A stretch of 64,000 nt of DNA, taken from NCBI RefSeq assembly GCF_963675165.1, contig NC_087381.1, positions 5,829,378-5,893,377 on the forward strand, read 5' to 3'. The DNA comes from Halichondria panicea. Lineage: Eukaryota > Porifera > Demospongiae > Suberitida > Halichondriidae. Of the stretch, positions 1 to 40,390 are shown piece after piece. The position numbers were made by a program, and so were the translations under genes. The notes below the pieces were generated by a model. It saw only the letters and a list, made by a program, of their open reading frames with translations, was not told the origin of the DNA and made no database searches. The first letter of the stretch is position 1. Every line of letters starts with the position of its first letter.

Positions 1-3000
1 ACCAGCAGATCCCACTCTTCCACACAGAGCAGCACTTTTGAAGGGCAGGGTTTTTTGTGGTGATCTTTTCGAAAGGAGCAAGACAAAAAGTGAACACTAA
101 CCTCAGAATGATAATCTGAAAACTCTGTAGATCAAAAAATTGGACGTCTTTAGCACATTCAATTATCCAGCCAAAGTGGTAGCTCATGGAAGAGTCTTCC
201 TCCCACACACGCTCGGGAGTTTCTATCCTAATGAGCCCGGGAAAGAAGACGTAGCGAGTGTTGTCTAGGTCTAGCTCCATCTTCTGAATATACTCTAGAA
301 CTTGCTTGTCCTTGATCTCAAAGCACAGCTCTAAAAGTGTCATGAAAACAATCAGCATTTCAATGTCGTAGCTCTTAAACGCTTTGGCAAACTTGGAAAA
401 AGGCACTACTCCAGTGCTTGAGGCGAGATTGCAGTGCTGACGGAACTTTTTAGGAGCAAACACTGTCCCAGTGACAACAGACAGCAATTTTTTGGAATCA
501 CAAATCAGAAAGGACTTTTCAGGAGAGGATTCATTGTGAAGAAACAACAGCAGACCCGTTTTGCTTAGCTGGTCACAGATATCAACTAGACGGTTGAGGG
601 TGGTCGGAATGAAGGAAAGAATGTCTGCCATTTTTTCTGACTTGTGTGTTTGCTCTAGATCGCTGTGTATTCGTTTTTGAACAACCTTCAGTGAAACTGC
701 AAGGTCATTTTTGAAGCTTTCAGCAAGGTAGATGTAAAATGTGTGAGCATTTAGGCTGATGGGTTCTGGAGAGTGGAGAATAGCAGAGCTTTTCTGGATA
801 TGTTTTCTAACTGTATTCATGCCTCCCGAATCAGCAAAGCGACAATCCATTGGAATAAACCCTGTGAACTCAAACTTCGAAAATTGCTTGATAATGGGAG
901 CAAAGATGTTCTCTTTGGCTCGTGGATCTTTTCCCATTTCCTTCACCTGGTCGGCATGGCTACCAACTACTATCACGTGTGCTTTGCTTTTCAGATTAAT
1001 GCACTGGTTTTGGACGAGGGTCAACCAACGATTCATGGAATCAATAATCGCCTGCTCACTTTCTACAAGCTTAGCACAGAGGATAATAATGGGTGGTGAG
1101 GTTTGAACAGCATTCTCTAGAATGGCACAGTGGCTCGTGTAAAACTCTTTCTGGCCAGCAAGATCAAAGTAAATGATTCTCCCAAATTCTTTGGTGTATA
1201 TTTCGTACGGTATGATCCCCACTGTGTTCGTATGGACACAATTTACGGGTTTTGTCTTCTGGAATTTGGACCAAATCCTTTTGAGCTCCAAATGGACTTC
1301 AACAGAGTGCTCTTCCCCACGCCACCGTCGCCAATGATGAGCACAGACAGAGGAAGGTGTGGAGGTCGCTCGGAGGAGAGCTTTCCGATGAGCTTGCTGT
1401 GTTTCTTGTAGACATTGGCAGTTTTGGCTCCGTGTTTCAACAGGAGCTTTATAATCTCAGGGTTGTTGGCTAAATCGAGAGGTGTCTTGCCTTCTTTGTC
1501 AGTCAAATTTGGATTGCTGTGGCATTCTGCCAGTAGACGTTTCACTGTCAAATCTTGCTCATGCTTTACTGCTAGCAAGAGGACACCTGAATACATGCAG
1601 ATGTGAATTAAGGTAATAAATACAAGTCAGTGTACCCCATAGGACACTAGTATAATTATAATACAGCCTAAATGAATGTTTCAAATTGTATAATAATGGC
1701 ACTCAATCATGAGTAATAGTTATAACATGGGCACGAGGGATTGTATTGCACTGAAGCACAAGAGCGCCAGCCCCGAGGGCTGAGTGCAATAATTATACAC
1801 CATGCATCCCGAGTGCACGTGTCATAACTAGTTTATATCCTTAGCAACACAAAAGACACCGCAGCTTCTACTGAAAGAGCTGAAAGAGACTACAGTCACA
1901 GCTGCTTGCATCTCTGTTCAAAGACACCAGTATCTGACCATTCAAGATTGCCGTCATTGGCACAACGAATGGCTTTACTCACAAAACGTTGGGCTCCTCG
2001 CTAGCGCTAGACAAGAGTAAAGCAGCCCCACCCCGTCAAACACTGCAAAACCATCAACGCTGCAAAACAGCCCCACCCCAAAGCTGCAATGCAACTCAAG
2101 CAGCCCCACCCCAAACTCTGCTGCAAACAGTTCCTCCTCAACTAATGGCCAACTCTGAGTATAGTACGAGTGACTGTGTCCTAGATTGAAACGGACAGTA
2201 AAGAACTGGAGAAAACTAGATATACTTTTACTGGAAGCCTTTGCTATACGCCATTTTTTGTAAAAATACCATGTATATCATTAAATCCCTCAAGGCTTTG
2301 TGGTCAGTGTAGAATATGAGATTCAGTGCATTATGGTGCATATTGAACATAGCAACAGCGTAGCAATGGGATATACTCTATATATCTGAGGATCTAAGGT
2401 ATTAATTGGCTGTAACTCAACGTGACGTCGATTCATACATGCAAATAATTATGATACTTCTTATATCAATTAAAATTGTGACAGAGTATAATTATGGAAA
2501 CAAGATATATGGATTGGACTGCATGGTGGTGGATGGTGAAAGCAGGCTGAGTTGGCAGATGAGCTCCAAAGCAATTCAGTCTCCATAAAGACCAAATTTA
2601 GTATTGCAATAAAATCAACAGGTCATTCACAACTGAAATAAAGATGGGAATTACTTGTTGTATCACAGTGATGTGTGATGGCGAGATACTTGACCACTTC
2701 CCAGTGTCCACCTTTGTAGGCCAGAGAGAGTGGGGTGTCACCAGCCTTGTTGACTGTACCTGTACATGCACACATGCATTGGTTCATATATGCAGTATAG
2801 TTTAAATCTATAATAATATAGTGCGTTTGTATTCCGGCAATAATTATAATTATTATGCCACAACATTCAAGATTGTATACATGCATGTACAACAATTATT
2901 ATGCCATGTAGTGGGTGTATTGTTGGCAGGGGATCTAATACATCGATTAGCTTAGCTAGGTCAGACGGACAGAGGTTCAGGTAACAACAATCGGAAAATC

Positions 3001-6000
3001 AGTAAACACACAGAGACACACATGCTATATTTACGAACCAGATAAACAGAAGAACCACTATAGAACTAACAAGAATAGTGACGGTTCCACTATTTACGAC
3101 AAATCACTAAAACCACAGTACAATTAAGTGTTAATGTCCTTTCCACATGTATAATATTAACTTACTTCTAGGATCACAATGATGCTCGTTCACAAGGTAC
3201 TTGACTGTGTCCAAGTGGCCATTAGCACAGGCCAGAGAGAGTGGGGTGTTACCAGCCTTGTTGACTGGCTCTGCATGTACATATATACTGAAGTGATGCA
3301 GCAATTGATGTGCCATACAATGCTTATACTTTTAGGATCACAATGATGCTTGTTTACAAGGTACTTGACTGTGTCCAAGTGGCCATTGGCACAGGCCAGA
3401 GAGAGTAGGGTGTCACCAGCCTTGTTGACTGGCTCTGTATAATTATACTGAAGTGATGCAGCAATTGATGTGCCATACAATGCTTACTTCTAGGATCACA
3501 ATGACGCTCGTTCACAAGGTACTTGATAATGTCCAAGTGGCCATTAGCACAAGCCAGAGAGAGTAGGGTGTCACCAGCCTTGTTGACTGTATCTATATAA
3601 TATTATATATACTGAAGTGATGCAGCAAGAATCAATGCTTATACTTCTAGGATCACAATGACGCTCGTTCACAAGGTACTTGATTGTGTCCAAGTGGCCA
3701 TTAGCACAGGCCAAAGAGAGTGGGGTGTTACCAGCCTTGTTTACTGGCTCTGCACATAATACATTGTAAACGTACAAAAAGAGTATAAGTTTATAGACGA
3801 AATCCTACTCCTTAAGTGCTACCACGGAGGCAGGGCTTGAGGTGAGTCACATGACACTTGAAATTCAATAGTACAGGAGGCAAGGGCCTCCTCTGCCTCA
3901 TTGCTAGTTACACCACTGTTGGAATTTGTATACATGTGCATCACTATACATATCCTCTCGGAGGCAGTTCAGTCATATCAATACCCAAATCTTGCACTTA
4001 AATCGCGGTCGCGTCACGAGTTTCCAAATTCGGATTTTCAGATAAACTCCAATCAGAACGTGCATAGTGGAGAAAATACAGAAGCATTGAATCGCCTGAA
4101 TGACGTCATCGAGATCCTGATCCAATATTTCTATAGTGAATGACTATACTAAAATATCTGATCAAGATCTCAATGGCAGCGACTACGATTTATATAAGTG
4201 CAAAGTTGGATAATGATAATTATGGCTGAACTGCCTCCAAGAGGACCATGCACATGCAATTTTCAAGGCATTCATTTTTTTTTTGTACAGTAGCTCATAA
4301 TGACATTACATCAATCATTGCGTTTATAAGCGAGGTGCCATATAATTATGCACAATATTTGCGAAATAAAATTAATGTGACCCTCCCCCTGCAAAATAAC
4401 ATACGTATACTATAGAGTATACTTCTAAAGGTACACTGTGCTATAATTATTGTTCAAGTAAAACCGGTTTTGATAATAGCTATAATTATCTTTAACAAGA
4501 AATGGAAATCCAACAAATTAGTGGGTGTAATACACATGTACGTACATACAATGACAATTTACCTCTAGGATCACAATGATGCTCGTTCACAAGGTACTTA
4601 ACTGTATCCAAGTGGCCATTGGCACAGGCCAGAGAGAGTGGGGTGTCACCAGGCTTGTTGACTGTACCTGCAAACACCAATTGTTTTTAAGTGAGCCTCG
4701 ATCATGAATATAATTATTGCGGGGTCAGGCTAAGAAATAAATAGAGCTTGTCTATAATAATTATAAGAGTGAAAAATTAACTTTTTTTGAGTCACTTTTT
4801 GGATTGAGGCCGACAATTTCCACAAGATGCTTGACACAGTCCAGCCGGCCATAGAATGCACTCACTGACAGAGCACTCTCACCTTCCCCTGCAGTTGGTA
4901 TTGTTAGCAAAACTAATTAATACAGCATAGTTACTTGCATCGCACAGTATACAGATGTGAATACAAATGGATAGCAAAAAGAAAACGAGTCTATTGTACA
5001 CAAGCTTGTAGACAAGTGTTAAAACGCTAGTAATTGGTAGTTAACAGGAGCTGACCTTGCTGAGTGCACACACTCTCTGCCAACTTGTACTCTCCAAACT
5101 TGTACTCTCCAATGCTCACTAGAGCTTCCACAATATCCTTCCAATGCATGTCAAGACTATTGACTTTGGCTGCCTGGAGAGTTGTTGCTGTGGGATGTTG
5201 GCTCTTCTTTATGGTTTCCAGTTGGCGGTAATTGCCCAATCCCAACCGAGCACCAAGTTGAAGCCATTGGTCACATTCCAGCTGACTCAGCTGTTCCAGT
5301 GTTGGGTATGAGGACAGAGGATCTACATATATTTAGAAAAGGAAAAGTGCATTAGCAGCAATATTAAATTAAGATATTTTGACTCATGTTCAAACTGTCT
5401 ATCAAACTGTTATCCCTACAGGTAAAGGTCACATCAAGAAACTGGCTGGACATACTCTGTGCAGTCATAGATAGAGCAAAGAGGGATTGGCAACAAAATC
5501 GACCTCGAATAACCATCCGTGTTGCCCCGGCATTGCCCCGGCGTTACTCGAGGCTGTCTACTTCAATGTAGGAAGACAGCCTCAAGTATATAAAGCACAG
5601 GCTGGGAATGGTTGAGGAGACAACTGATTGTCTTACTGTCAGTATAACAATCCTGCTGCTGATTTTAGACTTCATTTCCATGCTTGAGGCTATATGTGAT
5701 CCAGGACACTACTTAGTTAGACAATCTTAGCTATATTATAGGTGCTATTGGTACATAGCCATAAAAAAACGGTGAAAAGAGGTGAAAAAAGCGCTATGTA
5801 CCTGTAGCTCTTTCTCAACAATCTAGAAACAATTTTGGGAATTTCCACATAATACACATCATCAAGAAGCATGGAAATGAAGTTTTGGGGGGTCTTAGAA
5901 AGCTCTGTGTAAGGCTTCAAACATAAAAAAAGTGTTTCGCGGCGTTACGGTGGGGGACAACACGCATCGTTTCAGGATTAAGCCACACCCCCTGCACAAA

Positions 6001-7479
6001 AGTCTACGTTTTAACTTCCGTTGCCAATCCCTCTCTTCTTTATCTATGTCAAGCGCTGAAATATAATTATGTGGTGGTATTCATTGGCCAAGGCTGCCGG
6101 GTGCATGCATGTGTTGCCATGTATGTTGTTGTCTGCATGGTTGGTGCTGATGACATTCACTGAATTCCAATGCTCTATTTGTTGACATGATTACACTTTC
6201 ACTGGATTTTATTGGGTTTTTAACTCACAGATCTATACCATATTTAGCATAAACGCTCCTAACACCTTCAGACAAATTAATCACTAATTAACTGCATGAG
6301 ATTTAACATTTATGGTAAATAAATGTGTATATAAACGACATCACACGGAAACCACTGATCTAGCTGTACTGACTATTATATGCAACCTACTACTGTGTAC
6401 AACAGCTGATGGCTAACTCACCTATAGGTCCAGGCTGGAATCCCTCCAAATAGTTAGCCAAGGCAAGGTACATACACTGTCTGGCCATATCAGCAGCAGT
6501 GCGTCCACTACTGTTCTTAATGTCTGCATGGTTGGTTGAACAGCTGAGCATAAACTGACAGTACATGTGGTTTAGTGTGTGCTAGCACTCACCCAGACAT
6601 TGACACAACATACAAACAAATCGTCAAACCAATGAAAAAATGTTTTGGATGCTTTGGAAATCTCATAATAAATTCGCAACAATTAATTTTTTATGGCTTG
6701 CAATAATAGATATACGTACACGTCATCAACAGTATAAGATTGTATTTGCAATTATTCTTTATTTGTTGTAAATTTTTCCGCTAAACTTGTATTTCCACAA
6801 TAGGATAACCCTGTATCTACCAGACCATGAAGCATGCTGAAGTGTTTATAAGTACGTTACATAGTGGCCACCATTAATTAGCAATGACTTCTCAAATGTA
6901 CCTACTGCATGTAGCTTTGCTAGCTACAATGGCGACTACAGCCATACACCTGGACAAGATGACAGACACCTACTGACACAGCTGGACTAACACTCAGGCT
7001 CACCTGTGGGACAGTGGTGCTCCAGTAACAGCTTAGCAGTGTCCTTACTGTTGTTAAGACATGCCCAGTGTAAGGAGGTCCAGTCATCGTTAGCTGTAGC
7101 AGCTACAATGGCTCCAAACTTTATGAGTAGTTTTGCACTGTGGGGATGGTTACGAGCACATGCATTGTGTAGTGGAGTGTGTCCATTCTGCTCTCTAGTG
7201 TAGTAGTCACTGTTGGGTGGAGCTCCTCTCTGTAGCAGCTCAAGCACTTCTTGGTCACGTCCACCAACACTAGCCCTGGGCCAGTAGAGTTGTCTAGCAA
7301 GGTTGTCACTATGGGGAGATAAGATGAGTGCATAGTTATAGTGTTTGGGTGTGCAGGGATAATGTTGTGGTAAAATATACGATACAGTATAGCTGTGAAG
7401 TGTCTATAATCATGCCAACTGATAATTTAATAGCTGACATAAACAGTGAAACAACAGTGGTGTTATGCACTAACCTCAT
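1..7479 (-). CDS. ANK-death-ANK-Roc-COR protein, copy 1 (3' partial, frameshift in Roc)
   Basis: Minus-strand spliced gene. Exons I can place: 7475-7479 (ATGAG), 7004-7308 (ankyrin), 6422-6523 (ankyrin end), 5056-5322 (death domain), 4796-4888, 4563-4667, 3645-3749, 3488-3592, 3330-3434, 3166-3270, 2655-2759 (one ankyrin repeat each), then 1586 down past base 1 (last ankyrin, Roc, COR start). All junctions are GT-AG and phases agree. The P-loop GDGGVGKST is intact. About 24 codons later, near 1271-1280, one base is missing relative to copies 2 and 3 (six bases where they have seven in an A/C run), so the frame hits a stop; beyond it the frame is open again with Roc motifs FDLAGQ and GSHAD. 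It is either a recently inactivated gene or an assembly error. The death-domain exon is 18 nt longer than in the paralogs. Introns over 300 bp: 6524-7003, 5323-6421 (foldback element), 3750-4562, 2760-3165, 1587-2654 (hairpin element). The role is inferred to be GTPase/death-fold signalling. Confidence 0.8.
1718..1829. mobile_element. short hairpin element in copy 1 intron
   Basis: Left arm AGTTATAACATGGGCACGAG is inverted at the right end (CTCGGGATGC.. to ..GTCATAACT), with a short central loop holding GCGCCAGCCCCGAGGGCTGAG-like sequence. There is no coding capacity. The loop core resembles that of the hairpin at 37423-37533, which suggests one family. Confidence 0.5.
3166..3749 (-). repeat. 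four near-identical ankyrin exon + short intron units in copy 1
   Basis: Exons 3645-3749, 3488-3592, 3330-3434 and 3166-3270 are each exactly 105 nt, begin and end in phase 1, and encode near-identical 35-residue ankyrin repeats (VNKAG..PLSLACANGHLD core). The introns between them are only 52, 53 and 59 nt and are themselves similar (each carries TTGCTGCATCACTTCAGTAT or a close form). The repeating unit is therefore exon plus intron, about 157-164 bp, which points to recent unequal crossing-over. Because the units are phase-symmetric, any number can be gained or lost without breaking the frame. Confidence 0.88.
5464..6050. mobile_element. foldback (MITE-like) element in copy 1 intron
   Basis: About 31-bp terminal inverted repeats sharing CATAGATA and GAGGGATTGGCAAC: left arm near 5464-5494, right arm near 6020-6050. 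A second small inverted repeat (GAGGCTGTCT..AGACAGCCTC) lies at about 5551-5584. The interior ORFs are short and show no domain. It sits inside the 1.1-kb intron between the death-domain exon and the upstream ankyrin exon and is absent from the paralogous introns. Confidence 0.55.
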
Positions 7480-9543: not shown

Positions 9544-9640
9544 ACTGCACACAAAACATATAATTATACATAATTATACAGTCAAGCTCACATGTCAAAT
9601 AATATGTTTGAAGGAATGCATGTCACTGTACGTGCAGTAG

Positions 9641-12600
9641 TTACACCTTTTCTTTCAAGTATTGACAGATCTTGGTAGCAATCTCCTCTTTTCTCAAATC
9701 CAATAAGATCTTAATCAGTGCTCTGAATGTTGCTTCGCTGGGTTCGTGACCTCTCCAGATTGACAAACTGTTGATCACTGCCACTTGATTGCTTCTACTT
9801 AAATAAGTCTCTCGCCTCACGTCAGCTTGTTCACTGGCAGTCAACTTCAGTGGGTTGAGGTAGAGCTCCACATCATCAAAGTGCATAGCTACTGGAGCAA
9901 GGTCGTCTTGTTCAATCTCTCGATCCAACTGCTCGTCAGTGACTCCATACTTGACCATCAACTCATGGAGGCTGGTAGTCCCTGGATCCTATACACATAA
10001 CATGTTTAGGAAAATAATTATTACTTATAGCTAAACAACCAACAAAGAAAGGTCTGGGGTAAAACTCAACTTTTGTACGTTAAATAAAGAAGTAAATTGG
10101 AAGCACTCATTAATGGATCCAAAAGGGCCGGAGATTTGTTAAGATTTTGTACACAGCTATGGACAACGCACCTTTTGCTCATCACCACTGATACTAAACA
10201 CAGAGGGATCAATATCATCATGAGCCACACCAGCTAGGTCCTGTATCATGTGTATGAAGAATAGACTAGTTTAAATGAAAATTTAATGAGAAAAATAGTA
10301 TTCATGCATGCATAAGCTATTATCATTCTCATAGTTATATTCCACTCACCAGAGGGTTTCTCCCAGTGAAGACGCTGTACTTGTTGAGAGTCTCCTTCAG
10401 GCAGCTGTACGTTCCCTTAGTCTCACTCCTCCACGTCTCAAGGGCCTGGATCACCTCCCGTCTGGGACTGACCAACTGAATGGTGACAATGGAAGGGCTC
10501 AGTATTCTTCTGTACATACGACTGTTTCGAACTACTTCATTATGATCTTCATTGTCTGTGTCGGCAATCTGGCTAGCAAAATGGTAAATGAAAGCTTTGG
10601 AGATTATTTCGTCTCTCTTGGCATTCTTTTCACTGTGGATACACTGTATGGTGGTTCGATCCAGGCCAGCGTACGGCTCAAACTGTAAGAGACGCTTGAA
10701 GGCAAAGGCAACTTGTTGTGTTGATTTCATCATTCTTCTGTTCGAGGAGACAGCTGCTGCAATATCTTTGATGTTAACCAATGGGAGGTCAGAGGGATTT
10801 TTCAGAGGATGCTTGACAACTTCATCTGGATCAATCACCGATTCAATCACATTCACATTGCGGCCATAATGTTCAACAGTCTCACGGATTTTGCTCACAA
10901 TTTTGAAGCGATGAATCAGACCTTCCGGTCGAACTGTGTCACTGCGCATTTTGAGAACAAGAGATTTGCCATTTTCAGCAAGCTCGAGGTGTGCGGTAAT
11001 CCCATCATCGTTGCACCAGTAGATCCCACTTTTCCACACAGAGCAGAATCTCTGCAGGGAAGGTACATTGTGCAATACTTTGCTGGCAGGGGCAAGACCG
11101 AAGGTGAACACTATCCTCAGAATGAGGACCTGAAGGCAGCGAGGATCGAAAAACTCAATATCTTGAGATGTTTCCAATATCCAACCAAAGTGGTACTTTA
11201 TGTTTTGAGCGTCTTTCCAAACTAGATCTGGTGTTTCGATTCGAATGAGCCCTGGAAAGAAGAGGTATCGAGTGTCAGGCTCAGGAACAGAAGCATCTCT
11301 GTCAGTGGAAGAAGCAATCTCTTTCGAAAGGAAATCCAAGACTTGCATGTCCATAATTTCGAAGCACAGCTCTAAATGAGACATGTAGGCTATCAGCATC
11401 TCTATGTTGAAGCCACTGAATGCTTTTTGGAATTTCGACAATGGTACCACTCCAGTGCTTGAAGCTAGCTTGCAGTGTTGGCGGAAACTTTCAGGAGCAA
11501 ACACGGTCCCAGTGACTCTGGACAGAAGCGTTGGTTGGTCAATCACTAAGAAAGACTTCTCTGGAGAGCTGTCATTGCGAAGAAACAAGAGGAGACCTCT
11601 TTTATGCAGCTGGTCACAGATCTCTACAAGGTGAGGGACGGTGCTGGGTATGAAAGAAAGAATATCTTTAGTGCGTTGTGACAGATCCTCGTTAAGATCG
11701 CTCTTAATTCTTTCATAGACATTTCCCAATGATAAAGCAAGGTCGTCTTTGAAGCTTTCGGCAAGGTAGATGTAAAAGGTGTGAGCATTCAGGCTGATGG
11801 TTTCTGGAGAGCGGAGAATAGCGGAGCTCTTCTGAATCTGATTTCTTGCTTTTGTCAAATCATTCGAATCAGCAAAGCGACAATCCATTGGAATAAACTC
11901 TTTGAACTCAAACTTCGGGAATTGCTTGATAATGGGGGCAAAGATGTCCTCTTTGGCTCGTGGATCTTCTCCCTTTTCCTTTACCTGATCGGCATGGCTA
12001 CCAACTACTATCACATGTGCTTTGCCTTTCAGATTGGTGCACTGGTTTTGAACGAGATTCAACCAACGATACATGGAATCAATAATCGCCTGCTCACTTT
12101 CTACAAGCTTAGCACAGAGGATAATGATGGGTGGTGAGATTTGAACAGCATTTTCCAAAATGGCACAGTGGCTCGTGTAAAACTCATTCTGACCAGCAAA
12201 ATCAAAGTAGATGATTCTCCCAAACTCTTTGGTGTATACTTCGTACGGTATGATCCCCACTGTCTTTGCATCGACGCCGTCTACGGGTCTTGCCTTCTGT
12301 AGTTTAGACCAAAACCCTTTTGGGCTCAGAATAGACTTCAACAGGGTGCTCTTCCCCACGCCACCATCGCCAATGATGAGCACAGACAGAGGAAGGTGCG
12401 GGCGTCGCTTGGAGGAGAGCTTTCCAATGAGCTTGCTGTGTTCCTTGTAGACATTGGCAGCCTTGGCTCCATGTTTTAAGAGGAGCTTTATGATCTTAGG
12501 GTCATTGGCCAAATCGAGAGGTGTCTTGCCTTTTTCGTCGGTCACATTCGGATCACAGTAACATTCTACCAAAAGATATTCAACAGCTCTTTGATTTCGA

Positions 12601-20215: not shown

Positions 20216-20227
20216 CGGTAACATTAT

Positions 20228-21732: not shown

Positions 21733-21765
<33 letters not shown>

Positions 21766-26293: not shown

Positions 26294-26299
26294 CTATAG

Positions 26300-27681: not shown

Positions 27682-30600
27682 CTAGCAACAATTAAGCTTG
27701 CATTTTGGAAGGAATACAGTCACTGCATGTGCAGTATAGATACTAATTACCTTATCTTTCAAGTACTGACAGATCTTGATAGCAATTTCTTCCTTCTTCA
27801 GATCCAATAAGATACTAATCAGTACTCTGAAGGTTGCTTCGCTGGGTTTGTGACCCCTCCAGATTGACAAACAGTTTATCACTGCCACTGGATTGCTTCT
27901 ACTTAAATAATTCTCTCGCCTCACGTCACCTTGTTCACTGTCAGTCAACTTCAGTGGGTTGAGGTAGAGCTCCACATCATCAAAGTGCATAGCTACTGGA
28001 GCAAGGTCGTCTTGTTCAATCTCTCGATCCAACTGCTCATCAGTGACTCCACGCTTGACCATCAACTCATGGAAGCTGGTAGTTCCTTGATCCTATACAC
28101 ATGAATGTAAATAACATGTTCATACTAGCTGAACAACCAATGGACAGGTATGAGGTAAACTGTACAACTGTACTTATTATTATAATACATTAAGCTATAG
28201 TCTGAAGCACTCATTAAGGTACGTGGGGCCAAAGGGGACAACACACCATTCGCTCATCACCACTGATACTAAACACAGAGGGATCAATATCATCATGAGC
28301 CACACCAGCTAGGTCCTGTGCATGAGGGGAAGAGGGACTATAGTAAAGTAAACACATTATTATAGTTATACTAATATAATTTATTTAGATAAAATGCACT
28401 CACCAGAGGGTTTCTCCCAGTGAAGACGCTGTACTTGTTGAGAGTCTCCCTCAGACAGCTGTAAGTTCCCTCAGTCTCACTCCTCCATGCCTCAAGGGCC
28501 TGGACCACCTCCTGTCTGGGACTGACCGACTGAATGTTGACATTAGAAACTCGATATTGGCTCAGGATTTGTCTATACTTGAGAATGATGTTTGGATCAG
28601 AAATTTGACTAGCAAAATTTGAAACAAAGGCATTTGAAATTTGTGCATCTTTCTCGATATTTTTGTCACTGTGAATACACTGTAGAGTGTTAAGGTCCAA
28701 ACCAGCATACGGCTCAAACTGGAGAAGGCGTTTCAGTGAAAGAGCACGATAAACGGATTTCACAGCTTCTTTTTGAGAGATGACAGCAGCAGCAAGATCT
28801 CTAACTCTAAACAGAGTGAGCTCTGAGGAAGGTTTTAGAGGATGACTGACAACTTCCTGTGGATCGATCAGTGATTCCACTACTACAATATTCGGACAAA
28901 CATCTTTCACCGTTTCGAGGATGTTATTGACTATCTTGGAGCGATGGGCAAGGCCCTCGGGTTTAAGAACTTCAGATCGCATTTTGAGGATGAAAGATTT
29001 TTCGCTACGAAGCTCGAGGTATGCAGTGATCCCATTATCGTTGCACCAGCAGATCCCACTCTTCCATATGGAGCAGAATTTTTGAAGGGCAGGGTTTTTT
29101 GTGTTGGAAGGAGCAAGGCAAAAAGTGAACACTAGCCTCAGAATGAGAATCTGAAAACTCCGTACATCAAAGAATTGGATGTCTTGTACACATTCAATTA
29201 TCCAACCAAAGTGGTAGCTCATGGAAGAGTCTTCCTCCCATACACACTCGGGACTTTCTATCCTGATGAGCCCCGGAAAGAAGAGGTAGCGAGTGTCGTC
29301 TAGGTCTGGCTCCATCTTCTGAATGTACTCTAGAACTTGCTTATCCTTGATCTCTAAGCACAACTCTAAATGTGTCATGAAAGCAATCAACATTTCAATG
29401 TCGTAGCTCTTGAATGCATCAGCAAACTTGGACAAAGGCACCACTCCAGTACTGTAGGCGAGATTGCAGTGCTGGCGGAAGGGCTCAGGAGCAAATACAG
29501 TCCCAATGATATCAGAAAACAATTTTTTGGAATCACACATCAGAAAGGACTTTTCAGGTGATGATTCATTGTAAAGAAACAGCAGAAGCCCCACTTTGCT
29601 TAGCTGGTCACATATATCAATGAGATGAGGGAGGGTGGTCGGAATGAAGGAAAGAATGTCCATCATTTTCTTTGACTCGTGTGTTTGTTCTAGGTCACTG
29701 TGTATATGTCGTTGAACAATTTTCAATGAAACTGCAAGGTTGTCCTTGAAGCTTTTGGCAAGGTAGATGTAAAAGGTGTGAGCATTCAGGCTGATAGCTT
29801 CTGGAGAGCGGAGAATAGCAGAGCTTTTCTGGATCTGTCTTTTCACTATATTCATGTCACCCGATTCAGCAAAGCGGCAATCCATTGGAATGAACCCTGT
29901 GAACGCAAACTTCGGGAATTGCTTGATAACGAAGGCAAAGATACTCTCTTTGGCTCGTGGATCTTCTCCCATTTCCTTCACCTGATCGGCATGGCTACCA
30001 ACTACTATCACGTGTGCTTTGCCTTTCAGATTGGTACACTGGTTTTGGACGAGGGTCAACCAACGATACATGGAATTAATAATCGCCTGCTCACTTTCTA
30101 CCAGCTTAGCACAGAGGATAATGATGGGTGGTGAGGTTTGAATAACATTCTCCAGAATGGCACAGTGGCTCGTGTAAAATTCTTTCTGGCCAGCAAAATC
30201 AAAGTAGATGATTCTCCCAAACTCTTTGGTGTATACTTCGTACGGTATGATCCCCACTGTCCTTGCATCGACACCATCTACGGGTCTTGCCTTCTGGAAT
30301 ATAGACCAAAACTCTTTTGGGCTCAGAATGGACTTCAACAGAGTGCTCTTTCCCACACCATCATCGCCAATGATGAGCACAAACAGAGGAAGGTGTGGGG
30401 GTCGCTCGGAGGAGAGCTTTCCGATGAGCTTGCTGTGTTTCTTGTAGACGTTGGCAGCCTTGGCTCCGTGTTTCAAGAGGAGCTTTATGATCTTAGGGTC
30501 GTTGGACAAATCGAGAGGTGTCTTGCCTTCTTTGTCGGTCACATTTGGATCACTGTGGCATTCTGCCAGTAGGAACTCCACTTTATACTTTTGCTTTACC

Positions 30601-33600
30601 GCTAGTAAGAGGAAACCTATAATACAGAAGTTTAATTACGGTAAATACATTGTGCTAGTTATTAGGTAAATAAAAAGTTACTAGGTAAATACATTGTGCT
30701 AGTTATCCCAAATTGGTAAATTTTACTTTCATATACCAACAGTATAGCGCTGTAACGAGCTACGCTGAACTAGGACTTAGCCTGTATTTATGAGCTAACT
30801 CAACATGACCTCCATTCATAAATGCAAAATTCGATCCAACGAAACTCATTTTTTTAGTGCAAGAAGCTTTTTGTGTTAATATTACTGTATAACATGAAAG
30901 TGTACGCAGATAATTAGGATGGTTAATTTGATTGTGAAAGCAGGCTTGATGGCAGTACCGGGTAATTGCAGAGAATATTTCTTCCAGATGCCCTGCTTAC
31001 ATACAGTAAACTGTGCCTATAAGCAAGTGTCAATTCGATGCAGTAGAACCTCGCTAATCCGGACCCTTTTAATCCGAAACCTCGCAAATCCAAACAAATA
31101 ATTATATAGCAAACTGAAAAAGAAGAGGGCTGCCAGTAGAATAGACTACTGAGCATGCACAATCTAAATTACTTTGCTGAATCAGCAATAATTTAAACTG
31201 CTCAAGACAATGGCCACCGCAAAGAAAACGAAGAGAGAGCTATAACAAACTCATTGTATTGGAGAGAAAGTTGAGATAAAAGACTATTCTAGCTAGCAGC
31301 TTCCTTTCTGACCACAGTAATAATATGATAATATACATGTACAAAAGTGTCTTCGTTAATGATATTCATAATCAATTAATGACATCCGTTAATTCGGAAA
31401 TTTCATGCATTCAGATGGGGTGTCCCGCTCTATTTGGATTAGCAAGGTTCTACTGTACTGCGTTTGAGCTGAACTTCTAGCTGCTCACGATCATAGCTTT
31501 GAATAAGCAAACGATGGGCTTGTTTTCGAAAAAAAACTGCAGAGAACTACATCATATAAACGATTAGAAACAACAGTGTGGTTAATCGTGCAATAATTAA
31601 GGGATTAATAGCACTCATAAAAACAAAGTATATACATAGCAATCGGCTTTGCCTCGTGCAATTAGAAGCCTTGTTGCCATGCATTGCTTGTTCTCGTGCT
31701 ATAAATCCCGTACTGTATTTCTATCCCATAATAATTAATTGCAATCAATTTTATCACAGAATGCAATTAACAAAATTCAGCGCTAAAAGTTTCTTTTTTG
31801 CCAAATAATGGCAACAGATAATTGTACATTCACTCAAAAATTATTATTATAGTGTCTTTGGTCGAGATCCAGGAAGAGGGGCCTCTTAATCTAGCCCAGC
31901 CCTTTTACTGTATTACTACGTATTGTTTTACGATTGAAAACCTTTGGGAATGAGCTGAATCAGAAAAAAATTTGACACACTGCTATCAAAATTTTGCAAT
32001 CTGGCAAAAATCGTCATGTCATACAATTAAGCGACTTGTGTAGATTTTATTTTTGCAAACTATTACGCATGTTTGATGCTCTCAAAACATTGTAGTATTA
32101 CCATGCTCCTAATATCTTACCGTACGTGGCATACAATTGTACAGAACCAAATTTGAAATGAAATAGGATTTACTTTTTGTATCACAGTGATGAGTGATGG
32201 CGAGATACTTGACCACTTTCAAGTATCCACCTTTGTAGGCCAGAGAAAGTGGGGTGTCACCAGCCTTGTTGACTGGCTCTGTGAAAGACCACCATCAACA
32301 ACGTAAAACAGCATTGATAAACACTTACTATTTGGATCAACATGCTTGTTGATGAGAGCCTTGACCATTTCCAGGTTACCACGGGAACACTCAAGGGAGA
32401 GAGGAGTGTCTCCAGCCTCATTCACTGCAACTGTGGATACAAATTATGGACACTAGAAAGAAAGTTAACAGTTTGCAGTACACGCACATTTCGGGTCACA
32501 CTGATGTTCTTGAGCAAGATATTTGATAATCTCCAAATGTCGTTTCTTGTAGGCCAGAGAGAGTGGAGTGTCACCAGCCTTGTTGACTGTACCTGTACAT
32601 ATTTTGTTACACTGATTATTACTCTTGTTACATGAGTAGTAAAAAGGAAACCTTCATTCAAACAAGAATGCTGTATCTTGGTAGAAGAAATAATTATACT
32701 TCCAAAACAGAAAATGTATATGCATTCATCAAGTCATTGGCATGGCACCAGCACATACAATGATGAATGTACACATTATTCATTAATAATACTATCTATA
32801 AGTATAATTATATAGTCTTCAGCTAGTAGCTAAAATTATCAGCAATTGTAGCCTTACTTTTAGGATCACAATGATGCTCGTTCACAAGGTACTTGACTGT
32901 GTCCAAGTGGCCATTAGCACAGGCCAGAGAGAGTGGAGTGTCACCAGCCTTGTTGACTGTATCTGTGGAAGACCATCATCGAACGTTACAACGTAACAGC
33001 ACTGATAAACACTTACTGTTTGGATCAACATGCTTGTTGATGAGAGCCTTAACCATCTCCAGGTCACCATGGGAACACTCAAGGGCGAGGGGAGTGTCTT
33101 CAGTCTCATTCACTGCAACTGTAGATACAAGCAAAATGTAGGCACTATAAAGTTAAAAGCTTGAAGTACACACACATTTTGAGTAACACTGATGTTCTTG
33201 AGCAAGATATTTGATAGTTTCCAAGTGTCTGTTTTTGTAAGCCAGAGAGAGTGGGGTGTTACCAGCTGTACCTGCAAACATGCACCAATAAACAGTATGA
33301 ACCGCAATCATCGAGCGAAATTGATATTAATGAATCACTGGCTGACGCTCAATAACATAATTATAGGCTGAAAGCAGTAGAGCTGATCTAGGAGTGAAAG
33401 GAAAGATTTTTCGTTATTTCACCATTTGGATTGAGGCCCACTGTTTCCACAAGACGCTTGACACAGTCAAGCCAGCCATAGAATGAACTCACTGACAGAG
33501 CACTCTCACCTTCTCCTGCAGTTGGTAATAATTATAGCACATAAAACAGCATGGAGTACTTACATTATACATATATACAGACGTGAATACAAACGGATAG

Positions 33601-34343
33601 CGTTTTCTAATACAAGTTTATTATGGTATTACTAGTAGCTACAAGCAGTAACAAATGTTCACTAATAAGAATGTCAAAACACATGTAGTTATTTGCTGAC
33701 TTTGCTGAATGCACACACTCTCTGCCAACTTGTACTCACCAATGCTCACTAGAGCTTCCACAATATCCTTCCCCTGCATGTCAGTATTCTTGATTTTGGC
33801 TGCCTGGAGAGTAGCTGCTGTGGGATGTTGGCTCTTCTTTATGGTTTCCAGTTGGTCATTGCTCAATCCCAAACAAACACCAAGTTGAAGCCATTGGTCA
33901 AATTCCATCTGACTCAGCTGTTCCAGTGTTGGGTACGAGGATAGATGATCTACATAATAGTTAGACAATATTTAGGAGGTATCGATGAGCCTGATTTATA
34001 GAAGCCAAAAAGACTCGATCCTGCATAGTATGCCGATAGTATACCATGGGGCATTGTCATTGTCCAGTCACAGTTGAGTAGGAACAGTTAAAATGTTGGG
34101 GGGGCGATTTGTATAGGTGGTGCAAAGCACCACCCAAATGGGACTGCCCCCGATGCAGAGGGCCGGAAAGTTTGAGACAGGAAGCCACACCTCCTCATTA
34201 TGACATCATAATTATATGCGGCCTAGCTACCAGGCCGAGTTATAAAAGCGAAAACTCGGCCTGGGATCGAGGCTACCTAGCTACATGCATGCTTATTAGC
34301 TCTGAATAAGAACTAAAGTCCATATATAATAACTCTCAAAATC

Positions 34344-34404
<61 letters not shown>

Positions 34405-36414
34405 AAGTTTGTATTAATAATCATACATTCAAGTTGTATAATAATGCCGTAGCTATACAGCAGAATTGCGTTCAATGTTACAAGAGTATTATCATTCAAA
34501 AAAGCAATCCTTCTTTCATTCTGCTTACAAATTAATGCTTTCTCCAAGTTGTCAATTGGTTAATTAGAACACCTATCCAACTCAGGCATTCAATGTTGGG
34601 GGTGCCAGGCCCCCTTGCTCTGAAGTTGGAGGGGCCACTGGCCCCCTCGCCCCCCTATTCCTACTCCACTGAGTCATACAGTATAAACTCTATCTCTAAA
34701 ACCCTACACAGTAAAAACACAGTAACATAAAACATGAAATGCATCTTTTGAAATTTCATGTAGAAATGACATAAATTTCGGTCATTTTAATACGATGATG
34801 CATCCCATATAACATATGTGTTTTTGCTGTGTAACCCTTGTCTATTAGTCGTACAGTATACATGTAACATAGGATTTCAGGTTGGTTGGCAGAAGTTAAA
34901 AGTTGAAGTGCAGTCAACCATAATTATAACCATTAGGGTGAAGCAAATATATACAAGTCTTATTTTGTAATGAGATGGTCATGGATGGCAACTTTTAACT
35001 TCTGCTAACCAACCTGAAATCCTCTGTAGACAATGACACTGCCTCATTATTCCATCTGTGGTATTGCACTTTACACAAGGCTGTATATATGTGTTGATAG
35101 CCTACAAGTAAACTGCTGCATGGAAGGCAATTATGAACAAGTTTTCTATGGATGTATCACAACATTTTGACGGATCAAGGTAACATTGTGACCAATTATA
35201 TTGCATTATTTGCAAATATGTATAATTATGTTCTAAACACCTTCAGAAAAATGATCGCTAATGATATTCAACAAAAGTGTCACTTATATGACTATAATTA
35301 TGCATGAACGGCATCACAAAAAGCCACTGATCTAGCTGTACTGACCATACAACTCATTACATATACCCACTGACTACTGTGTACAACAGCTGATGACCAA
35401 CTCACTTCTAGGTCCAGGCTGGAACCCCTCCATATAGTCAGCCAAGGCATGGGACCCATTTCCTCTGGCAACATCATTAGCAGTATGTTCCCACTTGTCT
35501 TTGATATCTGCATGGTTGGTTGAACAGGAGCTGAGCATGAACTGACAGTATGTATGTGATTTAGTGTGTGCTAGCACTCACCCAGACAACATTGACCCAA
35601 CATGCAAACGATAATTCTAACATGCACCTATACCGACACAGCTAGACTAATACCCAGGCTCACCTGTGGGACAGTGGTGCTCCAGTAACAGCTTAGCAGT
35701 GGCCTCACTGTTGTTGTAACATGCCCAGTGTAAGGGGGTCCAACCATCATTATCTGTAGCAGCTACAATAGCTCCAAACTTGATGAGTACTTCTGTGCTT
35801 CGGATATTGTTGTTAGTACATGCCCAGTGTAGTGGAGTCTCTCCATACTGCTCTCTAGTGTAGTAGTCACTGTTGTTGGGTGGAGCTCCTCTTTGTAGCA
35901 GCTCAAGCACTTCTTGGTCATGGCCACTCTGACTAGCCCAGTAGAGTTGTTCAGCAAGGTTGTCACTATGGGGATATAAGATGAGTGCAGCATCATTGAT
36001 TAATTAGTGTTTGGATGTGCATGCATGTGTGGCAAAATATACTCTCCATTTTACATGACAAAAAAATTGTTCAAGGATCATCATCACCTAATGTACTGAT
36101 CAAATTACAGGATTCTACCCTACTGCATCGTGGATTCGCCATGTATCAATGCACTCCAGTTTCTTATAAAAGCTAATATAGGGTGGTGGGTAGTGGTGCA
36201 TGGTGCTTGAATAGGTCTGCATCCTGCATGGGTAATATCAATATCATCCAGGTATTGACCACATCCTGCGTGATATTGATATCAGCAGGCAAGCAAGCAC
36301 TGTATTTACAACTCTGACCACAATGAGCAATGTCCATAATTATTAATTAAAACCATGCCAAGTTACCAACTGATATATTTAATAGCTGGTGAAACACTCA
36401 TGAACTTACCTCAT
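27682..36414 (-). CDS. ANK-death-ANK-Roc-COR-death protein, copy 3 (1352 aa)
   Basis: Fourteen exons on the minus strand: 36410-36414 (ATGAG), 35664-35965, 35406-35507, 33701-33949 (death domain), 33423-33515, 33176-33271, 33017-33118, 32858-32962, 32488-32592, 32329-32430, 32174-32278 (six ankyrin cassettes), 28404-30616 (ankyrin, Roc, COR), 28247-28315, 27682-28092; the sum is 4059 nt, all phases consistent. The P-loop reads GDDGVGKST (~539-547), with FDFAGQ and GSHAD intact. The cassettes are of several types: two begin FAVNE and are 102 nt; one (33176-33271) has a 9-nt in-frame deletion. The last exon runs 21 codons past the point where copy 2 stops; a possible donor (AAG/GTAATT) sits there, so the C-terminus is uncertain. 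Intron 33950-35405 holds elements at 34231 and 34871 and a CA microsatellite; intron 30617-32173 holds a pogo-like MITE. The C-terminal death fold is at ~1217-1325. Confidence 0.87.
31041..31455. mobile_element. pogo/Tigger-like MITE in copy 3 intron
   Basis: Terminal inverted repeats CAGTAGAACCTCGCTAATCC (left) and its inverse with one mismatch (right), ~415 bp apart. CAGTA.AACCTC termini with CTAATCCGGA subterminal motifs are typical of pogo/Tigger-like elements. TA follows on the right, but the left flank is TG, probably mutated. No transposase ORF. Confidence 0.65.
34231..34275. mobile_element. 45-bp TAGCCTCG-family remnant with exact 9-bp duplication
   Basis: CAGGCCGAGTTATAAAAGCG followed by AAAACTCGGCCTGGGATCGA and GGCTA, flanked on both sides by CCTAGCTAC (34222-34230, 34276-34284). 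The sequence equals the fused arms of a foldback element such as 16751-17781 with the centre deleted and the left terminus lost. Confidence 0.7.
34346..34402. repeat. (CA)n microsatellite
   Basis: Uninterrupted AC dinucleotide run of about 28 units in the copy 3 intron 33950-35405. Confidence 0.95.
34871..35023. mobile_element. 153-bp hairpin element
   Basis: 35-bp arms, AGGATTTCAGGTTGGTTGGC.. and its inverse ending ..CAACCTGAAATCCT with one or two mismatches, around an ~83-bp loop. In the copy 3 intron. Confidence 0.65.
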
Positions 36415-37148: not shown

Positions 37149-37422
37149 AACCAATTGTAGAATCGAGGCAAACCCAATACCAGCTCACATTATGATGAGC
37201 TAGGGATGTATCAAGTATATATGCAGCGCCATGCACAAACGGCGCCCCATAACTATAATGACATATAGCCCACATAATGGTTAGCTCTGACTCTGCTTCA
37301 AAGAGACATACAAATTAATAAGTGTATAAAAGTAGCAAAGACGTTAGCAGTTATTCGAATTCAAAAGTGAAGGAATTAAGATTTATCTTCCAAGTTACTC
37401 GTGCTTATATATACACGTTATA

Positions 37423-37533
37423 GTTATTGACTGGTTGACTAGTAATTATGGCTTATAAACAACCAATGCCGAGGGCGCAGCCCGAGGCTGAGGTTGTTTA
37501 TAAACCATAATTACTAGGCAACCAGTCAACAAC
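37423..37533. mobile_element. 111-bp hairpin element
   Basis: 42-bp arms (GTTATTGACTGGTTGACTAG.. and its inverse, three mismatches) around a loop with GAGGGCGCAGCCCGAGGCTG. The loop core resembles that of the hairpin at 1718-1829. Confidence 0.6.
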
Positions 37534-38040
37534 TGATTTATTTACTGCAAAAACAGCAAAACAGTCATTTGAACATCAGTGGAGACAGTTAAACTTGCTC
37601 TCACAGCCTCAGAATTATGCAGTTAGAACAGTTACAGGCATAGAACTAGCAGTACTACTGTGGGGTTTCCTCTCAAGAGACAACCCTGTTCCATAGACAG
37701 TTCTGACCAGACCTTGTGATAGGGCTTTGCAATCTCTTCTCTTGGGCGTTCACCAGACACAATAGAATTCCGAATTTTGGCTAAGGTGGGGAACTATTTC
37801 TGAGGGTTGAGGTTGCAAATGGGTGGACATGATGGTACAAATGTCACTTCAGCTGGTGTACGCGGGGAGAGAACACCCTTATAATGGGTCGGTAAGTTAT
37901 TTCACCACAGGAGCTAAGTAGGATGGCCCTCATCTTGCCATTGTCATTCATATCGTTCGCTGTGAAATACAGCTTGGCCCGTTTGACGTAAGATTTTCAG
38001 TCTCCCAACGCTCGAGATAATTATTACCTATAATTATTAT

Positions 38041-38700
38041 ACATAGAATCAATAATCGCCTGCTCACTTTCTACAAGGTTAGCACGGAGGATAATGATGG
38101 GTGGTGAGGTTTGAACAGCATTCTCCAGAATGGCACAGTGGCTCGTGTAAAACTCTTTCTGGCCAGAAAAATCAAATTAAGTAGATGATTCTCCCAAACT
38201 CTTTGGTGTATACTTCATACGGTATGATCCCTATGCACTGCATGATGTCCTTGCATCGACATCACCTCAGTACTGGTCTTGCTTTCTTTAGTTTAACCAA
38301 AACCCTTTTGGGCTCAGAACGGGCTTCAACAAAGTGCTCTTCCCCACGCCACCATCGCCAATGATGAGCACAGACATGCAGAGGAAGGTTTGGGGGCGCT
38401 CGGAGGTGAGCTTTCCGATGAGCTTGCTGTGTTCCTTGTATATAGACATTGGCAGCCTTGGCTCCGTGTTTCAAGAGGAGCTTTATGATCTTATAGTTTT
38501 CGCCAAATCGAGAGGTGTCATGCCTTCTATGTTGGTCACATTCAGATTGCTGTGGCATATTGCCAGAAAACTCAACTGATGAATCTTGCTCATGCTTTAC
38601 TACTAGCAAGAAATCACCTGCAAATGTGAATTATGCATGGTAATTAAAATATCATGTCAGTGCACCCCATAGGACACTAGTACAATTATAAATGTAGCAA
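38041..38700 (-). pseudogene. copy 4: decayed Roc/ankyrin fragment of the ANK-Roc family
   Basis: Matches the start of the large Roc exon of copies 1-3 (ankyrin IIKLLLKHGAKAANVY, a frame-shifted P-loop region, and an IIILRANLVESEQAII-like strand). It carries several indels, including duplicated bases at the switch region near 38170, inserted sequence near 38230-38270, and frameshifts either side of the P-loop. The upstream intron (38640-38700) matches the copy 1 intron (1610-1668), including CCCCATAGGACACTAGTA. It lacks everything downstream of the Roc middle and everything 5', so it is not functional. Confidence 0.8.
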
Positions 38701-38789
38701 CTTGGTAAATGATTTTTTTGTAATGCATATGCCACCTATCATGCATGTTTCAGCATATACTCTGTATCTGTACGACCAGGCACCTATAT

Positions 38790-40168
38790 ATCTCCAAGAC
38801 AGTGGGGCTTCATGTCATCACGCTCATCTGTTTCAGCCCTATTACAGGTGATAGAAGACTGGAGTAGAGCCCTAGATCAAGTTCAAGAAGTATGTGTAGT
38901 TTTTTTTATGTAAAAAAAGCATTTGATTCTGTCCCCTATGTTACTCTTCTAAAACTTCTTCAGTCACTTAATTTTAACGAATATTTACTAAACTGGGTGC
39001 ATAGTTACTGGAGAGGAAACAGTTTGTGCATGCATGATGGGAATTGATGGCAGTAACTCAGGCAGCTTACATGTTCTTTCAGGTGTGCCCCAAGGTTCGG
39101 TTTTGGGTCCACTATTGTTCATTACGTACATAAACCAAGTCACAGATGTTGTCTCTCAAGCCAGTAAGCTTAATAATTATGTTTGCTGATGACATGGCCT
39201 TGTACATCAGAGTTATCACATCTTCCAATGACTACGTTGATCTCCAAAATGACATTACAGAAGTCTCAATTTTTTGAACACCAAACTATTAGAATTCAAT
39301 CTTGGCAAGTAGAAGTTTATGTCTGTTTCTAAGAAAACATCATGCTCATTGAAGGCTCCAACTCTACTTTTAAATGGTTATATACTGCAGCAGGTTTTTG
39401 ACTACAAGTATACCTAGGAATTATACCATATCGGCTGACTTGAGCTGGCACACTCACATCAATATACCATCTGCAATAAAACAAGGAAGTTAATAGGACT
39501 ACTACCTCGCCGGTTCTCAGGCAATTCTTCTCCAACAACACTATTAAATTTGTATACATCCTTTGTGAGACCACATCCGGAATACGCTTCCTCTGTGTGG
39601 AACCCATTTCAGAAGTCTGAAATCAACAATCTAGAAAAACTCCAGAGATTCGCTATGAGAGTCTGTTTGAAGAAATGGAATTTGAGAAGTGAAGAATTGC
39701 TCACCTTGACCAGGCTTCCTTCTCTGCAGCTGAGGCGCCTTGCTGCTGTGCTCTGCCACCTGTTCACAATCTTACTGACTTCCCAAACAATCCAACAACT
39801 AAACGAAATAAATTATGATGTACAGCAGCAGAACAGTTAACTGCATGTTTCTCTCTGGTCCCCTACAAATGTAGAACATCGTTGTACAAATTCTCTTTTT
39901 TTCCTCATGCAATCGCAGTATGGAATAATTAAGCTGGTTAGCCACAAGGAATTTGCTCTAGTAGACTGTGCTAGTATAATAATAATGTTCATTTAAGTCA
40001 TAATTATTTGTATTCTCACTTAGTTGACATGTTGTAGCTATTAAAATGTATGGGTTTTAATGTTTTAATTTTTATATTATAGGACACACTTCACCCTAGC
40101 TAGCTTTATATAGCTATTTGTTGTATCCTTGCATTAATTGCTAAACCTTTAATAAAATAAAAAAAAAT
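38790..40168 (+). pseudogene. dead LINE reverse transcriptase inserted in copy 4
   Basis: Plus-strand remnants in order: QWGF..SRSSVSALLQVIEDW (~38802), KKAFDSVP (motif A, frame broken in a T-run), SGVPQGSVLGPLLF (motif B, ~39080), MFADDMALY (motif C, ~39178), and a C-terminal ORF 39550-39840 (LYTSFVRPHPEYASSVWNP type). At least three frame breaks. The 3' end has ATAAAATAAAAAAAAA at ~40150-40167. It is a different lineage from the LINE at 21.7-23.6 kb (poly(A) rather than (AAT)n tail). Sequence resuming at 40169 matches the copy 1 and copy 3 introns, so the insertion hit the copy 4 intron. Confidence 0.8.
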
Positions 40169-40390
40169 CTGTAAGGTATATTGGGCAACTCAACATGACC
40201 TTCATTTTATATACGTACATGCAAGCATGCATCCAACGAAATGATGTTTATCATAAAATAGTAGAAGAAACACACAAATAAGATATTGGTTGGTGGTGGA
40301 CAGAGAAAGCAGGTTGAGTTTTGGCATGAGCTCCAGCAGTATATACTTCTCCAATGAGTCACTTCTTGTGAATATGAAGGAGTCAATTGT
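40169..40390 (-). pseudogene. rest of copy 4 intron beyond the LINE
   Basis: CAACTCAACATGACCTTCAT, a GGTGGTGGA..GAAAGCAGG..TGAGTT block and GGCATGAGCTCCA correspond in order to 2405-2570 in copy 1 and, in part, 30780-30955 in copy 3. It shows that the copy 4 duplication once extended further 5'. Nothing else is seen from 40391 to 40908. Confidence 0.55.

Follow-up and report, generated by a model that had tools for sequence, protein, structure and literature searches.

Sponge genes joining ankyrin repeats, a Roco GTPase and death folds have a hypervariable ankyrin ligand face

Introduction

What could a sponge be recognizing with a cluster of genes that join ankyrin repeats, a GTPase and death folds in a single protein? 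We addressed this question for a window of 64,000 nt, the whole stretch of DNA analysed, in the 131-Mb assembly of the sponge Halichondria panicea (contig NC_087381.1, hereafter C5, positions 5829378-5893377); all results come from this one assembly. An earlier note on the window had described three full-length paralogs and a fragment, all on one strand, in which ankyrin repeats, an internal death domain, further ankyrin repeats, a Roco GTPase core (Roc and COR) and a C-terminal death-fold domain follow one another, and had likened them to expanded innate-immune gene families. We found that in the N-terminal ankyrin block, which comprises four repeats encoded by exons E2 and E3, the ligand face is hypervariable between paralogs while the framework is largely conserved, and that this variable face sits on a conserved GTPase and death-fold chassis. 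Judging from the sequences, we give a probability of roughly 70% to the reading that the genes encode germline-diversified intracellular recognition receptors, likely for non-self ligands, with death-fold signalling.

Results

The complete domain order was found in gene B (window 9641..19640, minus strand, as are all features of the cluster described below). Its model is intact and consists of ten exons, in which every junction is GT-AG and the phases are consistent, giving one continuous frame of 1,225 amino acids (aa). The spliced protein contains, in order, ankyrins, a death domain, ankyrins, Roc-COR and a death domain, as the earlier note had proposed. The inferred start exon E1 (19636..19640) reads ATGAG before the donor GT. 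Among the 13 other copies having an E2 model, eight carry the same ATGAG|GT at a distance of 109-449 bp upstream of E2, and the remaining five were covered for only about 100 bp upstream. E2 (19196..19494) encodes three N-terminal ankyrin repeats, recognized by Pfam Ank, with the hypervariable ligand face, and E3 (16516..16641) encodes a fourth repeat that is variable too. The internal death domain, DD1, occupies a single symmetric phase 1-1 exon, E4 (15874..16122). It is followed by an ankyrin exon, E5 (15616..15708), and two one-repeat ankyrin cassettes, E6 (15420..15524) and E7 (13130..13234). The 2.3-kb exon E8 (10350..12628) encodes the last ankyrin, the Roc GTPase, COR and, at its end, a candidate death-like helical bundle, and E9 (10172..10240) is a linker. 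E10 (9641..9988) encodes the C-terminal death domain, DD2, and ends in the stop codon TAA. Every exon from E3 to E7 has phase 1-1, which would allow a death-domain exon to enter among the ankyrin exons with the frame kept. We regard this architecture as almost certainly real. The possibility that the exons belong to separate transcripts was rejected on sequence grounds, since ten phase-consistent exons form one frame and the exon order is conserved.

We compared the domains across paralogs using the pooled ratio of nonsynonymous to synonymous differences per site (pN/pS). The ratio was 0.95 (0.82-1.14) for E2 and 1.28 (1.02-1.67) for E3, each in 27 paralogs; for E2, 27 of 30 sequences were used after removal of L013 and L015, which are divergent, and L004, which has a split exon. 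The rest of the protein is under purifying selection, with ratios of 0.54 for DD1 (30 genes), 0.29 for Roc (15), 0.37 for COR (16) and 0.42 for DD2 (10). The variation falls mostly at ankyrin repeat positions 3, 4, 6, 11, 14 and 15. At the positions that we take to contact the ligand, which are the design positions of designed ankyrin repeat proteins (DARPins), the E2 ratio was 1.67 (bootstrap 1.24-2.47), compared with 0.73 (0.62-0.87) elsewhere in the exon. The contrast was weaker in E3, with 1.38 at ligand positions and 1.08 at the others.

A tree-based count at a false discovery rate of 5% identified excess-replacement codons at 17 sites in E2, nine in E3 and one in Roc (14 sequences), and none in DD1 (28 sequences) or DD2 (10 sequences). 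Ten of the 17 significant E2 codons lie strictly within the 17 design positions, and 13 do once position 11 is added; codons 5, 15, 70 and 85 fall outside the ligand set. A distinct combination of residues at 17 sites was present in 26 of 27 paralogs, and a pair of paralogs differed at a median of 13 of the 17.

The per-site table for C5 had been seen before the set of positions was fixed, and position 11 was added after C5 was seen. The positions were fixed before the sequences of the C7 and C1 groups were read, so the tests on those two groups are the blind ones. The C7 set comprised 12 exons from C7, one from C8 and one from C12, of which 12 of 14 were used (L059 was absent from the result and L061 was too short), and all 20 exons of the C1 set were used. 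At the same positions the ratio was 2.31 (1.59-4.44) in the C7 group compared with 0.80 (0.56-1.40) elsewhere, and 1.75 (1.30-2.56) in the C1 group compared with 0.66 (0.47-1.31) elsewhere. In the third repeat, which is nearly free of gaps, the ligand positions reached 4.35 (C7) and 3.68 (C1), compared with 0.36 and 0.50. Taken together, the ankyrin face very probably has a diversified binding function.

The C1 exons (L068-L087) form a separate ankyrin-exon group with the same hypervariable positions, often occupied by W, Y, R, E or S. One COR match on C1 lies about 9 kb from one of these exons. Inspection by eye of locus L088 revealed no ankyrin-like open frame of at least 70 aa upstream of a C1 COR match.

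The GTPase core was identified by profile and by fold. Pfam detected Ank in the gene B spliced protein, together with Roc, which was the sole nucleotide-binding family over its cut-off. The Roc profile matched 12 of 12 members at E values up to 0.5 (best 1.7e-9), and the Roc of the gene family matched that of LRRK2 by profile at E 4.5e-11. The P-loop, DxAGQ and SHxD motifs were invariant in all 23 aligned Roc copies. For an AlphaFold model of E8 (mean predicted local distance difference test score, pLDDT, 75), the PDB structures that matched best across the Roc-COR region were LRRK1, LRRK2 and the Chlorobium Roco protein (Foldseek E 4e-15 to 1e-12). Comparison with VIA gave Z of about 14-17 over roughly 390-470 aligned residues, with a high root-mean-square deviation (rmsd) of 7-10 and 13-16% identity. 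The COR domain of CtRoco (3dpt) was matched at Foldseek E 3.5e-7, with a template modelling (TM) score of 0.42 on the target, and by VIA at Z 12.5 over 283 residues (rmsd 8.4, model residues 280-651). A Roc domain with its GTP-binding motifs is therefore directly followed by COR, the latter recognized by fold, and the Roco core described in the earlier note stands. Neither NACHT nor NB-ARC exceeded its Pfam cut-off in the gene B spliced protein, where only sub-threshold P-loop matches were listed (NB-ARC, E 0.014). Pfam listed no leucine-rich repeat (LRR) families in gene B, whose sensor repeats are ankyrins. No kinase was matched at E up to 0.05 in the 1,225-aa protein, for which an unseen 5' exon is possible because the start exon is inferred.

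Structure prediction and profile searches upheld the two death folds that had been proposed, DD1 by model and profile and DD2 by profile. In the whole gene B protein, DD2 matched Pfam Death at E 3.4e-4 and 21.1 bits, just under the cut-off of 22.6; the exon alone scored 22.9 bits (E 9.6e-5), over the cut-off. With an E value limit of 0.5, Pfam Death was matched by DD2 in all 11 paralogs (best E 2.6e-6), and DD2 is, by profile, a death domain. Under the same limit DD1 matched this family in 12 of 15 paralogs (best E 7.5e-5; 0.024 in gene B). Its AlphaFold model has six helices (pLDDT 82), and 20 of the top 21 Foldseek entries were death domains, counting the UNC5b cytoplasmic domain. The best Foldseek match had E 0.28, probability 1.00 and a TM score of 0.71, with no entry at E 0.001. 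Death domains also headed the VIA list, in which the best match had Z 10.1 over 81 residues (rmsd 2.3) and fell short of the Z of about 13 recommended by the tool for helical bundles. These modest scores support the prediction of DD1 as an internal six-helix death fold.

The final 100 residues of E8, between COR and DD2, appear to form a further helical bundle with an invariant tryptophan (residues 657-748; window 10350-10721). Pfam Death was not among the 11 families found across its 21 members, profile-profile comparison with DD2 gave a low probability of 16.8%, and the fold search with the whole exon hardly covers the bundle, which is a candidate only for a third death-like domain. Genome-wide, first-look candidates numbered 655 for the C-terminal death exon and 503 for Pfam Death (150 scored of each). 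The death-domain complement of the genome is very large and spread over many contigs.

We then examined how widely the family is distributed in the genome. A 226-residue Roc query, with 150 of 153 candidates scored, gave at least 146 matches, corresponding to at least 132 Roc-related loci after merging of matches less than 3 kb apart. These family counts were made in six frames, include fragments and are lower bounds for large families; counting Roco genes by Pfam Roc mixes in Ras-type GTPases. The loci were located on C12 (39), C5 (37), C7 (28) and other contigs (28), and the close C5 type, defined by 68% identity or more, accounted for about 40, of which some were broken. The DD1 query gave 47 matches, of which 38 were taken as loci. 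The order of exons was assessed with 31 of 150 E2 matches, 38 of 47 DD1 matches (nine weak or second-piece matches omitted), 41 of 150 DD2 matches and all 146 Roc matches. DD1 lay within 5 kb downstream of E2 on the same strand for 27 of 31 E2 exons, and in the reverse direction for none. Roc lay downstream of DD1 for 23 of 38 loci within 10 kb (8 in reverse) and for 27 of 38 within 20 kb (11 in reverse), and none of the 38 DD1 loci had a Roc on the opposite strand within 20 kb. DD2 was found within 5 kb downstream of 26 of 40 C5-type Roc loci, with none in reverse. DD1 was also present on C10, in two copies with 47% identity in E8, and in a single copy on C14, so the ankyrin-death-Roco architecture seems to predate the C5 expansion.

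Of 15 modelled copies, seven were intact from E2 to E10 (B, C, L002, L003, L006, L010 and L011), three were broken or split (A, L009 and L004) and five were partly covered (L007, L012, L029, L031 and L032). Compared with L003, its near twin, L002 has a stretch in the COR region of E8 that is out of register and reads as though the frame had been lost and then regained; this difference is either an assembly error or the mark of a degenerate copy. In the region C12:1.03-2.08 Mb, 33 Roc matches of 27-33% identity were found, most of them within long open frames, the largest of which has 4,555 codons. Some ankyrin matches there fall in a frame of the same length as that of Roc (e.g., 3,536 aa at C12:1144024 and 1147627). 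Does this region hold giant single-exon ankyrin-Roc genes?

The second ankyrin block, between DD1 and Roc, varies in another way. Its units are mostly 102 or 105 bp long and in the main one per exon, and their number ranged from 0 to 18 per copy among 20 copies. No unit was found in L007, L011 and L013; one was found in L002, L003, L006 and L030, two in gene B and L010, three in L004, four in L015 and six in genes A and C, L008 and L012. The longest arrays were those of L009 (11), L029 (13), L033 (14), L031 (15) and L032 (18). The search demanded AG/GT edges and phase 1-1, and exons with other edges were missed. No intron separates some adjacent units in L012 and L029, and in L032 two units are 6 bases apart; these are probably two-repeat exons. 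The C7-group copy L014 had no ankyrin cassette in the roughly 5 kb upstream of E8. The units belong to few sequence types, arranged in repeating orders, and near-identical blocks stand in tandem in L029, L032 and L033, which is a mark of recent unequal exchange. Four cassette types were conserved within type (pN/pS 0.28-0.56), so what varies in this block is how many units there are and how they are ordered, rather than single residues.

The remainder of the cluster agrees only in part with the count of three full-length paralogs and a fragment given in the earlier note. Gene C (27682..36414) is an intact model with a tentative E1 at about 36414-36410, followed by E2 (35965-35664), E3 (35507-35406), E4 with DD1 (33949-33701), E5 (33515-33423), six ankyrin cassettes (33271-32174), E8 (30616-28404), E9 (28315-28247) and E10 with DD2 (28092-27682). 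Gene A (1..7479) has all exon types: a tentative E1 at about 7479-7475, E2 (7308-7004), E3 (6523-6422), DD1 (5322-5056), E5 (4888-4796), six cassettes (4667-2655) and then E8. It extends past the left edge of the window, its left end being contained in L001, and is frameshifted; E8, with Roc-COR, and the C-terminal death exon, in L001, have no single open frame in this assembly. The fourth piece (38039..38569) is a decayed part of one Roc exon, matching query residues 18-186 at 54% identity and containing four stops, and no gene B exon matches were listed between 38.6 and 40.39 kb of the window. Since gene A is broken and cut by the edge, and the fourth piece is a short decayed fragment, the window contains two intact genes, B and C; the presence of three full-length genes was rejected. 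The cluster extends in both directions; on the right the next copy is L006, whose 3' end is about 1.9 kb outside the window.

Other features were observed around these genes. A reverse transcriptase open frame (RVT_1, E 3.2e-29) lies between genes B and C (21887-23608, minus strand). Adjoining the cluster (41135-44910, minus strand) are exons with an Ig-like match under the cut-off and two Sushi domains over it; after these comes a hydrophobic segment, transmembrane in appearance when inspected by eye, as in a receptor-like gene. An open frame of a repeated unit at 56665-57027 (plus strand), with TH runs and SDRSPVRVH, is probably a minisatellite.

Discussion

The observation made in the earlier note was partly confirmed and its interpretation is supported. 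The likeness to expanded innate-immune families is strengthened by the diversification of the ligand face against purifying selection elsewhere and by the size and order of the family. From these patterns we infer that an immune or allorecognition role is likely. In such a role, a ligand bound by the ankyrin face would pass its signal through the cassette arm to Roc-COR, and binding would alter the dimer or the nucleotide state of Roc-COR. This change could expose or cluster the internal and C-terminal death domains, which might then recruit death-fold adaptors and seed an assembly that leads to cell death or inflammatory signalling. The diversified ligands would most likely be microbial or non-self molecules. 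Germline diversity would arise from the many paralogs, from gain and loss of cassette exons and from point changes on the binding face. The odds lean slightly towards a broader proposal, in which the genome holds a large natural germline library of ankyrin paratopes, a counterpart of DARPins, mounted on Roco GTPases instead of the ATPases of NOD-like receptors (NLRs). The library would be shared among several groups, those of C5 and C7 and perhaps also of C1 and the giant C12 genes, which lie on different chromosomes, with an ankyrin arm between DD1 and the GTPase that is adjustable by unequal exchange of phase 1-1 exons.

Several observations weigh against the reading of these genes as diversified receptors of this architecture. 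Pfam lists only the C-terminal Death in the gene B spliced protein, DD1 being under the cut-off; DD1 and DD2 match each other weakly by profile-profile comparison (probability 5.8%), and neither profile found a death domain among PDB sequences. Pfam COR-B was matched in only 1 of 12 members (E 0.0074) and COR-A is absent from the gene B list. A Roc exon follows within 10 kb at only 23 of the 38 DD1 loci, so the family includes copies that are long, incomplete or dead. As regards selection, the non-ligand positions of E3 stand near 1, so part of the E3 signal may be relaxed constraint, and the non-ligand intervals of the C7 and C1 groups include 1. The sequence sets for Roc and DD2 were smaller than that for E2, which lowers the power of the null there, and recombination between paralogs and shared ancestry can inflate site tests.

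In another view, these are mostly decaying tandem duplicates whose ankyrin variation reflects relaxed constraint instead of selection. Gene A, L009 and several other copies are indeed frameshifted or interrupted by stops, and the non-ligand ratio of E3 just mentioned points the same way. Relaxation predicts ratios near 1 everywhere, not values above 1 at ligand positions and 0.73 elsewhere in E2; Roc stays at 0.29, and 7 of the 15 modelled copies are intact from E2 to E10. We consider this view very improbable, and simple decay of the whole family was rejected on the pN/pS contrast between domains and within E2 and on the intact copies. The ratios also bear on an expansion of a non-immune kind, in which the proteins are intracellular scaffolds or DAPK-like regulators of stress and death, each paralog with its own endogenous partner. 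Ankyrins commonly bind endogenous partners, and the domain set overlaps that of DAPK (ankyrins, Roc, COR and a death domain). A ligand-face ratio above 1 in three genome groups would be unusual for fixed partners, and 26 of 27 paralogs have distinct combinations at the 17 sites; we consider this explanation improbable. The same architecture might instead serve allorecognition, controlling fusion between self and non-self through conspecific ligands rather than anti-microbial defence. A large paralog family, a diversified binding face and death folds would all suit it, and the fungal ankyrin-repeat genes that offer a precedent are nonself recognition genes in the published account available (PMC4986451). 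The diversity seen here lies between paralogs of one genome, whereas allorecognition needs allelic polymorphism, and by our analysis this alternative appears rather unlikely.

How do these putative receptors compare with known proteins? DAPK1-type Roco proteins have the order kinase, ankyrins, Roc, COR and death domain. Gene B shares the order of ankyrins, Roc, COR and C-terminal death domain; it differs in having no detected kinase, an extra death domain between two ankyrin blocks and a large family with a diversified face. The LRR-ROCOs of brown algae are candidate immune receptors, described in the consulted parts of the source as a multigene family with single-repeat, phase-symmetric exons, exon shuffling and positively selected concave sites (PMC11378527). 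They resemble the sponge proteins in combining a Roc-COR switch with a repeat domain whose phase-symmetric single-repeat exons vary between genes, and in selection on the ligand face of a repeat sensor in a multigene family. Their sensor is LRR instead of ankyrin, and those parts of the source report no death domains for them. Ectocarpus has 35 LRR-ROCO genes by that account (PMC11378527), compared with at least 132 Roc-related loci here in a six-frame count that includes fragments. In fungal NLRs of the STAND (signal transduction ATPases with numerous domains) class, ankyrin repeats show positive selection and length variation, with the selected sites on the concave surface or hairpin loops apart from one exception, and inner helices and hairpin loops are named independently as the ankyrin binding surface (PMC4986451, in the parts consulted). 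These proteins differ, as described there, in having a NACHT or NB-ARC switch and fungal effector domains and in varying between repeats and alleles.

Roc-COR has also been found joined to immune or death domains in animals, as here. The sea-anemone protein NG1 contains LRR, GTPase, COR and TIR, NG3 contains kinase, death and TIR with Roc/COR, and Aplysia has TIR with ROCO (PMC5094078, PMC9334734); the available portions of these papers describe neither an ankyrin-death-ankyrin order nor a diversified ankyrin family. Among sponges, Dysidea avara has NLRs with NACHT and LRR, some with DEATH (PMC12909245), and here, too, an early animal has intracellular receptor families that are expanded and carry death folds. 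The switch is NACHT and the sensor LRR; in the main text of that paper the words 'ankyrin' and 'roco' are absent, and COR appears in one figure legend. Kaur and colleagues described conflict systems of the AP-GTPase-COR type in prokaryotes, in which the LRRs evolve rapidly, and reported that TRADD-N proteins with Death-like domains have undergone a large expansion in Amphimedon (PMC8195603, in part). In the AP-GTPase-COR systems, too, a Roco GTPase is the switch in a protein that senses invaders through fast-evolving repeats; these systems are prokaryotic, sense with LRRs and, in the parts of the paper covered, have no ankyrin-death-ankyrin order described. In Halichondria panicea itself, genes responding to lipopolysaccharide include GTPases and ankyrin-repeat proteins, which the portion of the source covered does not tie to this family (PMC8242945). 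In the parts of the open-licence literature covered, no description was found of proteins with this domain order or of a family of animal Roco proteins whose ankyrin face is diversified. Within the reach of these searches, the genes would therefore represent a new architecture and lineage for a known recognition logic.

LRRK2, the Parkinson's protein, and DAPK1 are both Roco proteins, and the ancestral role of this class is debated. If the sponge genes are indeed diversified recognition receptors, it would become directly testable whether, early in the evolution of animals, Roco GTPases served alongside NLRs as switches for pathogens or non-self. The family would also be a natural experiment in the diversification of ankyrin binding sites, which could inform designed ankyrin binders, and it gives searches in other early-branching animals a specific family as their target.

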